This document shows, one piece after another, positions 1,147 through 3,594 of a stretch of DNA of 44,103 nucleotides. How positions within the stretch are numbered: position 1 is the stretch's first letter; the number at the start of each line of letters is the position of its first letter. The notes under the pieces are model-generated. The model did not search any database. It had not been told where the DNA came from and saw nothing but the letters and a program-made list of their open reading frames with translations. Source of the DNA: Bacillota bacterium (GTDB lineage: Bacteria; Bacillota; Desulfitobacteriia; Desulfitobacteriales; Desulfitobacteriaceae). A program made the position numbers and the translations under genes. Location of the stretch: NCBI GenBank assembly GCA_021811425.1, contig JAJZPA010000005.1:1-44103 (forward strand), given 5' to 3'.

Positions 1147-3594
1147 ATGGCCGATGAGAGAACAGAAAAACTATACGTTTTGTCTAAGGTGAGTTTTCTG
1201 TCTGACCTGACGACCGAGGAACTTACTGAACTGGCCGATGATTTCACCTGGGAAGACTATTCTGCGGGATCAGACATTATCCAGCAAGGGGAGCAGCAGC
1301 ACCGATTTTATGTTCTGGCCCGGGGACGGGCCAAGTCTTTAGTGACCCAGGAGGCGAGAAAGGCCTGGCAAGTTACTGCTTTCGGCGAGGGAGATGCTTT
1401 TGGCGAAATATCCCTGTTTACAGGAAGAAAAGCTCCGACTTCGGTGCGTAGTACGGAGAACTGCCGGGTATTGGTGCTGGATGCGGAGCATTTTGCCCGC
1501 ATGATGGTGCGCTGGCCTAAGCTATACCCACGTTTTATTGAAAAACTTTCTAAGAGTCTGAATCGGGCCAACGATATCGTGTGGCAGACAAAGCATAAGG
1601 AATTCTTGCGTTCCGCCTTGCAGTTGACGCAAAATGAGGAGAAATATTACGGCCTTTGGGGCAGTGCCCGGACGACGAAGGAAGTTGAAAGCAAGCTGGC
1701 CGAATTTGCGGAAAATGGCGGGAATATACTCATCGTCGGCGAACGGGGTACAGGGCGGCAGATGCTGGCCTGGCTCGTCCATAAACGGCGTTGGGGGGAG
1801 GCTGCGCCTTTTATCGTTATTGACGGTCGCCGCTTTGACAGGCAGTGGGGTGACCAGCTGCTTAATGCCGGAGACACAGGAGAACAGGGGCCCGGCTTGG
1901 GGAGCAGCCTCTTGGATGTTGCTGAGGGAGGTACATTGCTGATCCGGGAGATTAACCTTGTTTCACCCCGGGCCCAGTTAAAGTTGGTCCAGTCTTTACA
2001 ATCCCAAAAACATGGTTGCCTCATCGTGGGCACATTGCAAGCGGATCCCGAGCGCTTGGCTCACAAGCTTATCCCCGAATTAAGGGCAAGTTTTCCGCAA
2101 AGTTACACGATTTCGCCTCTGAGGGAACGGAAAAGGGATATTCCGGTTATTGCTCAGGGAATTTTGGAGAAGTTGGCCAGTCAATATCGGCGCCCTGTCC
2201 CTGTTCTTCATTCAGAAGCGACGAAGTTGCTTTTATCGCATCAATACAGGCAAGGAAATGTCACGGAACTGATCCGGGTCATGGAACGAGCCTTTTTTTT
2301 GGCTGAGGATGTCGGCATTGGCTTGGAACACATTTTCTTCGGACCGACAGCTGAGAAAATCGGCCGTACGCTTGATCTCTTTTCCTGGCCGCGCATCGAG
2401 AACCTGTTCAAGCAAGGGCGTTTGGTTTTATGGTTGCAGCGGTTAGCGGCAGGAATTTTTGTTTCTATCCAGCTGTTCTTATTACTGATGCCGGCTACAC
2501 GTTACACCGGTGTGGCCTTAACCCTGATCTTTACCTTGATCTGGGGTCTGTGGTGGCCTGTCTTGACCGTGATCTCGCCTTTTCTCGGCAGAGTTTGGTG
2601 TACGGTTTGTCCTTTTTCTTTTTTCATGGAACAAGTTCAGAAAAAATGGCATTTGAACCGTCCAGTTCCGGATCTTCTTAAAAAATATAACTATATCACC
2701 GTCACCTTTTTGTTTCTGCTTATCTTTTGGATCGAAATCGTGACCGGAATGCGTTCCCACCCGGGATACACCGTCGCCTTACTGATTGCCGTGCAGGCTG
2801 CTGCTACTGTAACTGGGGTTATATACCAAAGACATGCCTGGTGTAACTACCTCTGCCCGTTGGGAGGGTTTGTCGGCATAGCGTCAATCGGGGCCATCAT
2901 GGAGATACGCTCCGATGCCACAGTTTGTTTAAATAAATGTACGACGGCCGATTGCTACCGAGGAAACGGAACCATTGCCGGTTGCCCTATGTCGCAACAC
3001 CTGCCGTATTTGGATAATAATCTCAGTTGCAAGTTCTGTTTTAATTGTGTTCGCACCTGTCCCCATGGAGCGATCAAGTTTAACCTGCGAGTTCCTGCCC
3101 GGGAGATTTGGCATTTGGTGAGGGTGAATCAAGGTTTTGCCGTCTTTATCGGAGTAACTTTGGCGATTCTGATCCCGATCAACTATTTTGAACCCTTGCA
3201 AACCGTATGGCCTCTGGGGTTATGGCGTTTGTGGTTTAGTCTGACCTATTGGGGAGTGGCATCAGCCACAGGTGTAATTTTTTGGTATATCGCCCGGCCT
3301 TTTAAAACCAAAGCGGCCTCCCGCCGGATCAAGCTGACTTTTGCTTTGATTCCTTTGGTCATAGCCGGACATATCATCTACCAGTTGCACTTTGTTCCGG
3401 GAGTATCATCCCTGCTGCTGGGGATGGGCTGGTTGACCGAGGCTGGAGAGGTTCGTTTTACTTCTGTTTCGCTTGACGTCGTAGGACAGGCGGTAGCTTT
3501 GACCACTGGTCTGGCTTTAAGCGGATTTACGCTAGCTATGGTCTTGCTGCACACCCGTAAGAAAAGGATGGAAAAGCCGCCGACTCCCCATTGA
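1147..3594 (+). CDS. Membrane fusion protein: Crp-like domain, degenerate sigma54-activator AAA+ domain and NapH/NosR-like Fe-S module
   Basis: Three modules are visible in 815 residues. Residues ~10-135 form a cyclic-nucleotide/Crp-type beta-barrel (GDAFGEISLFTG). Residues ~165-400 align with the central AAA+ domain of NtrC-type activators: GERGTGRQ at 198-205 in the Walker A place, GGTLLIREI in the Walker B place, SPLRERKRDIP, and QGNVTELIRVMERA. Key residues are lost: the Walker A Lys is Arg, the Walker B Asp is Arg, and no GAFTGA loop is present. ATP hydrolysis and sigma54 activation are therefore unlikely. No helix-turn-helix follows. From ~425 the chain has membrane helices with CTVCP (485-489), CNYLCP (566-571), an irregular Cys set (594, 598, 603, 613) and a ferredoxin motif (Cys 628, 631, 634, 638), as in NapH/NosR/CprC membrane proteins. 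The role is probably redox or ligand sensing, or electron transfer at the membrane. ATG 1147 follows AAAGGAG. The stop lies inside the recA -35 box. Confidence 0.85.
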   Translation: MADERTEKLYVLSKVSFLSDLTTEELTELADDFTWEDYSAGSDIIQQGEQQHRFYVLARGRAKSLVTQEARKAWQVTAFGEGDAFGEISLFTGRKAPTSVRSTENCRVLVLDAEHFARMMVRWPKLYPRFIEKLSKSLNRANDIVWQTKHKEFLRSALQLTQNEEKYYGLWGSARTTKEVESKLAEFAENGGNILIVGERGTGRQMLAWLVHKRRWGEAAPFIVIDGRRFDRQWGDQLLNAGDTGEQGPGLGSSLLDVAEGGTLLIREINLVSPRAQLKLVQSLQSQKHGCLIVGTLQADPERLAHKLIPELRASFPQSYTISPLRERKRDIPVIAQGILEKLASQYRRPVPVLHSEATKLLLSHQYRQGNVTELIRVMERAFFLAEDVGIGLEHIFFGPTAEKIGRTLDLFSWPRIENLFKQGRLVLWLQRLAAGIFVSIQLFLLLMPATRYTGVALTLIFTLIWGLWWPVLTVISPFLGRVWCTVCPFSFFMEQVQKKWHLNRPVPDLLKKYNYITVTFLFLLIFWIEIVTGMRSHPGYTVALLIAVQAAATVTGVIYQRHAWCNYLCPLGGFVGIASIGAIMEIRSDATVCLNKCTTADCYRGNGTIAGCPMSQHLPYLDNNLSCKFCFNCVRTCPHGAIKFNLRVPAREIWHLVRVNQGFAVFIGVTLAILIPINYFEPLQTVWPLGLWRLWFSLTYWGVASATGVIFWYIARPFKTKAASRRIKLTFALIPLVIAGHIIYQLHFVPGVSSLLLGMGWLTEAGEVRFTSVSLDVVGQAVALTTGLALSGFTLAMVLLHTRKKRMEKPPTPH

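Follow-up and report, generated by a model that had tools for sequence, protein, structure and literature searches.

The window, the whole stretch of 44,103 nucleotides that we analysed, contains ORF 1147-3594, which has an ATG start with AAAGGAG upstream and is followed after 66 bp by a recA gene (Table 1). In Pfam, the encoded protein matched cNMP_binding (PF00027, aa 37-120, 57.5 bits, cut-off 27.5), Sigma54_activat (PF00158, aa 172-288, 40.4 bits) and AAA_lid_14 (PF25601, aa 326-396, 47.9 bits), the latter two also above their cut-offs, and it matched Fer4_5 twice (PF12801, 39.8 bits, cut-off 22). No HTH or other DNA-binding domain was matched by Pfam in the 815-aa protein, and the membrane module stands there instead. 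The original prediction was that a CRP-like domain, a sigma54-activator AAA+ domain and a NapH/NosR-like membrane Fe-S part are joined in one chain, and this was borne out by the Pfam matches and the motifs. The residues behind its view of the AAA+ domain were also confirmed in ORF 1147-3594: the Walker A Lys is Arg, the Walker B Asp is Arg, GAFTGA is missing, and no DNA-binding domain is present.

Table 1. Features of ORF 1147-3594, with positions in the window
Feature	Position	Strand	Basis
Whole gene: CNB / pseudo-AAA+ / membrane Fe-S protein, 815 aa	1147..3594	+	ORF, Pfam, orthologues
CRP-type cyclic-nucleotide-binding-like (CNB) domain, aa 12-140	1180..1566	+	PF00027, alignment to PKA, column counts
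Degenerate sigma54-activator AAA+ core, aa 166-320	1642..2106	+	PF00158, PF14532; phmmer matches to NtrC1/NifA/PspF chains
Walker A remnant GERGTGRQ, aa 198-205 (R204 for Lys, Q205 for Thr/Ser)	1738..1761	+	Alignment
Segment where the GAFTGA loop is expected, loop absent; Walker A-B gap of 41-58 residues across the family	1762..1926	+	46-row alignment
Walker B remnant GGTLLIREI, aa 261-269 (R267 for Asp)	1927..1953	+	Alignment
AAA+ lid, aa 321-400, sensor II Arg lost	2107..2346	+	PF25601, alignment
Eight predicted TM helices, aa 433-801	2443..3549	+	TM prediction, positive-inside count
CX2CP motif, C485 and C488	2599..2613	+	Invariant in 46/46
CX3CP motif, C566 and C570	2842..2859	+	Invariant in 46/46
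Ferredoxin-like insert: C594/C598/C603/C613 and CX2CX2CX3CP, C628-C638	2926..3063	+	Cys invariant in 46/46

Full-length orthologues with 43-66% identity were found in 35 of the 83 class genomes (one of them a fragment), closed genomes included, and in the phylum sample they occurred in 14 of 398 genomes and 10 of 267 genera. The distribution is patchy: the window's genus has one other genome, and it has no orthologue. The closest orthologue (66%) is from another family of the same order (G041), and some genomes have two copies. Family f75 (G229 and G279) has divergent forms with about 31% identity. Furthermore, a plasmid search identified two cyanobacterial proteins with the same Pfam architecture, one on plasmid2 of Aulosira laxa NIES-50 and one on pPg_03 of Pseudanabaena galeata CCNP1313. 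Since the full-length family alignment (46 rows) spans many genera of the phylum and the cyanobacterial plasmid proteins share the architecture, ORF 1147-3594 is not a chimera. With 269 contigs, the assembly of the window genome is fragmented, which could point to a chimeric or pseudogene artefact, but the same full-length open frame with invariant cysteines in closed genomes and many genera makes this extremely improbable. Chimeric assembly itself was ruled out by the orthologues in closed genomes.

Some copies are interrupted or truncated. In a one-contig genome (G016), the orthologue L023 has a single in-frame TAG at RFEXQWG in the AAA+ part and is otherwise intact; the TAG may be an error, decay or read-through. 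The copy in G160 (L112:4938-7089) consists of two ORFs with an in-frame TAG, and it is probably a pseudogene or an assembly error. In Pseudanabaena galeata, the N-terminal part is present a second time, in truncated form, on another plasmid (NZ_CP112876.1:26991-27654), where it is annotated as a sigma 54-interacting transcriptional regulator. A scan of genome contigs with exact-peptide seeds did not find the fusion, and these seeds were probably too strict.

The Arg substitutions in the AAA+ part are conserved in the homologues. At the Walker A Lys position, 40/46 rows have Arg followed by Gln, and the remaining six, all divergent Firmicute rows, have Lys. The Walker B Asp position is occupied by Arg (27 rows), Lys (9), Gln (6), Asn (2), Gly (1) or His (1), and never by Asp. 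GAFTGA is present in none of the 46 rows, nor is Asn at the sensor I position, while Arg at the sensor II position (T373 in ORF 1147-3594) was found in one row. In the putative Arg-finger region, judged from sequence alignments, an ELRASFPQS-like sequence stands in place of the canonical FREDLYYRL. Both cyanobacterial proteins keep the Walker A Lys-Thr and have lost the Walker B Asp and GAFTGA. Thus no homologue with intact Walker motifs and GAFTGA was found among the 46 rows and the two cyanobacterial proteins, and the conserved losses support the original prediction of a scaffold that very probably does not hydrolyse ATP.

In the AAA+ tree, the fusions were separated from the canonical activators by a branch with support of 100/99, and the cyanobacterial and Lys-retaining fusions were nearest to the activators. 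The tree includes only six canonical activators; this position fits a stepwise decay, in which hydrolysis and sigma54 contact would have been lost first and the P-loop Lys later, and the tree also fits one origin of the fusion. The tree of the C-terminal module has a three-way split and cannot decide on an independent fusion in cyanobacteria.

The window genome has rpoN (203 bits for PF04552) and many activator genes. TIGR02395 found rpoN in 75 of the 83 class genomes, and it had no match in the fusion carriers G080 and G081, in which PF04552 gave nothing over the cut-off either. These genomes are 94% and 98% complete, and G081 is a single contig. A further carrier with no rpoN match (G018) was left out of the rpoN-less count because it is only 82% complete. 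Moreover, sigma54 and its activators were reported to be absent from all 29 cyanobacteria examined (PMC3162934). Since the fusion occurs in carriers without detectable rpoN and in cyanobacteria, reported to lack sigma54, its AAA+ part is not a sigma54 motor. A regulatory role linked to sigma54 might still be considered, such as poisoning of activator hexamers by an inactive subunit or binding to sigma54, and the clear descent of the protein from activators (phmmer, AAA+ tree) as well as the rpoN and activator genes of the window genome agree with this. However, such a role is very unlikely given the loss of GAFTGA in every row, and as a general function it is contradicted by the rpoN-less carriers and by the occurrence in cyanobacteria. 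In the rpoN-less genome G081, there is also an NtrC-like response regulator (L100, G081:C1:3082173-3082658 region) that has lost GAFTGA and has GGTLYLKEI as its Walker B, a decay that parallels that of the fusions in a protein outside their family.

The N-terminal domain had been described as a cytoplasmic ligand sensor. The CNB fold is present, but the sensing role is weakened. When the domain was aligned to PKA and the columns were counted, the Gly-Glu of the phosphate cassette was kept (Glu in 37/46), whereas the phosphate-binding Arg was found in none of the 46 rows and its position is A96 in ORF 1147-3594 and Ala or Ser in 41/46. In addition, about 20 residues of the domain are deleted in the clade of L023 and L026-L028. 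A ligand sensor is therefore doubtful; canonical cAMP or cGMP binding is unlikely from these residues, and another ligand is possible. In NCBIfam, CRP gave 36.4 bits for positions 1180-1566 of the window, and a higher score, 53.2 bits, was obtained with family 2B encapsulin shell proteins.

The Walker A and CNB residues bear on whether the protein is an electron carrier gated by a nucleotide or ligand, in which the AAA+ pocket would bind ATP or another nucleotide without hydrolysing it, or the CNB domain would bind a small ligand, and electron transfer would be opened. The good score of the CNB fold and the Walker A Lys kept in the six divergent rows and both cyanobacterial proteins are in its favor, but Lys and Thr are replaced by Arg and Gln in 40/46 rows, ORF 1147-3594 included, and the CNB domain has lost its phosphate-binding Arg and, in one clade, about 20 residues. 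We consider this gating quite unlikely.

Twelve cysteines of the membrane module are invariant in all 46 rows (485, 488, 566, 570, 594, 598, 603, 613, 628, 631, 634, and 638), and from their spacing the ferredoxin-like insert probably binds two 4Fe-4S clusters. Lys and Arg are concentrated at the C-terminus and in the loops carrying the Fe-S motifs, and thus both protein ends are predicted to be cytosolic and the Fe-S motifs to be on the cytosolic side. The module falls into the broad NapH-like class, with Fer4_5 over the cut-off and eight predicted TM helices, but it is not NapH itself, since NapH TIGR02163 gave 30.3 bits, far under its curated cut-off of 213.05. There was no Pfam match to an FMN-binding domain in the 815-aa protein, and a phmmer search of PDB with the C-terminal module gave weak ferredoxin matches only. 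A common membrane module is found in PceC, NosR, and NapH. All three are regarded as carriers of electrons, NosR and PceC having initially been called regulators (PMC5928378), and NapH-like proteins have been presented as a modular apparatus for electron transfer (PMC8238504).

No conserved neighbor or operon was found for the fusion in Firmicutes. The neighbors vary by lineage, are shared locally among close relatives only, and point to no substrate, and a conserved Firmicute operon was ruled out on these differences. A shared upstream motif was likewise rejected, as the only words that exceeded shuffles were AT-rich and promoter-like. In cyanobacteria, where the two fusion genes (L096:5653-9344 and L097:5803-9440) are on plasmids of two different orders, the cysteine synthase gene cysK lies directly downstream within 20 bp. 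Genes for an ArsP-type permease and thioredoxin, or for DsrE and rhodanese, are nearby, and one copy has a divergent MerR gene alongside. These neighbors suggest sulfur or metal(loid) redox work in cyanobacteria, and two such loci are too few to extend this to Firmicutes. The stand-alone relatives of the C-terminal module adjoin FtrD-like (PF10080) and MacB/FtsX-type genes and small Met/His-rich proteins, a weak hint of metal or thiol redox work. In L057:6219-7953 and L061:6864-8655, the stand-alone Fe-S membrane protein comes immediately after small Met/His-rich proteins with a membrane anchor, and these are perhaps its metal-binding partners.

The mean pairwise identity is 73.2% in the ferredoxin part, 66.8% in the lid, 51.2% in the AAA core, and 47.8% in the CNB domain. 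Because the ferredoxin part and the lid are the most conserved, we favor electron transfer as the function, with the CNB/pseudo-AAA+ arm serving as a platform for docking or assembly. The support for electron transfer in NapH, NosR, and PceC, the relatives of the module, was counted for this by analogy. Judged from sequence, there is about an even chance that the fusion transfers electrons as a self-contained membrane protein of the NapH/NosR-like class, with a cytosolic arm for docking or oligomerization that combines a CRP-type domain with a pseudo-AAA+ domain derived from a sigma54 activator. Through its polyferredoxin, electrons would pass between a partner and either the quinone pool or a metal or thiol substrate. 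With both protein ends predicted to be cytosolic, the arm would no longer hydrolyse ATP or contact RNA polymerase; it would oligomerize and dock the partner, chiefly through the conserved lid, and electron transfer would thereby be assembled or gated from the cytosol. The conservation of the lid may also reflect folding only. Single-sequence AlphaFold models were uninformative (pLDDT 36 for aa 1-405 and 38 for the full protein), so ring assembly and docking by the lid are guesses.

The main rival is a membrane redox sensor that works by protein contact. The Fe-S module would read the redox state of quinone or metal, and the pseudo-AAA+ arm would relay it through a regulatory protein that it binds or releases, with electron transfer as input and protein contact as output. 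An arm descended from a transcription activator, a well-conserved lid, a solitary gene with no enzyme alongside, and the divergent MerR gene beside one cyanobacterial copy would all suit a sensor, and as NosR was initially regarded as a regulator, a signalling output is also possible for the fusion. On the other hand, the protein lacks a DNA-binding domain and a conserved partner gene, and NosR and PceC, the earlier putative regulators, are now seen as electron carriers. We therefore regard the sensor as rather unlikely, and electron transfer is the favored output. More broadly, and with somewhat less confidence than an even chance, we propose that in this cross-phylum family the AAA+ motor of a sigma54 activator lost its catalysis and its ties to sigma54 and RNA polymerase, and that it now serves a membrane electron-transfer protein as a platform for regulation or assembly. 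If so, respiratory, metal, or thiol redox flow would be controlled by a pseudo-AAA+ ring.

Each part of the fusion is already known. Among the open-access papers searched, we found no description of the domain combination, the stepwise motor loss, or the life outside sigma54, and an earlier one may exist elsewhere. Sigma54-activator AAA+ domains have been treated as dedicated sigma54 partners, and this family shows such a domain persisting in hosts that lack sigma54, coupled to a membrane redox module and with the steps of its decay preserved. The role of a pseudo-AAA+ platform can be addressed in this tractable family. Proteins of this kind are entered in public records as 'sigma 54-interacting' or 'nitrogen assimilation' regulators, misleading gene names that the family would correct in Firmicutes and cyanobacteria.

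In sigma54-dependent activators, a DNA-binding HTH is usual but not universal. Compared with bacterial enhancer-binding proteins of the NtrC1, NifA, and PspF class, whose AAA+ core and lid are recognizable along their length in the fusion, the fusion has lost the Walker A and B, GAFTGA, and sensor motifs, has a membrane module in place of an HTH, and occurs without sigma54. VpsR and YplP are soluble DNA-binding regulators. Both were named as activators with a deletion in GAFTGA (PMC3162934), and like the fusion they have an activator-type AAA+ domain that probably does not work on sigma54, but in the fusion a membrane Fe-S module follows this domain. The CNB fold is common to the fusion and the CRP/FNR family, from which the fusion differs in having no HTH and in the loss of its phosphate-binding Arg.

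NapH, NosR, and PceC (RdhC) share with the fusion a polytopic module with two CxxCP-type motifs, and NapH and NosR also have ferredoxin-like cysteine motifs. The fusion differs from them in its first motif (CX2CP), its eight predicted TM helices, and its lack of an FMN domain; NosR and PceC have an N-terminal extracytosolic FMN domain, whereas the fusion has a cytosolic CNB and pseudo-AAA+ arm. Stand-alone 4Fe-4S membrane proteins of about 460 aa (for example L057:6219-7712) are about 30% identical to the C-terminal module of the fusion, but they have no CNB or AAA+ part and form a clade separate from the fusions.
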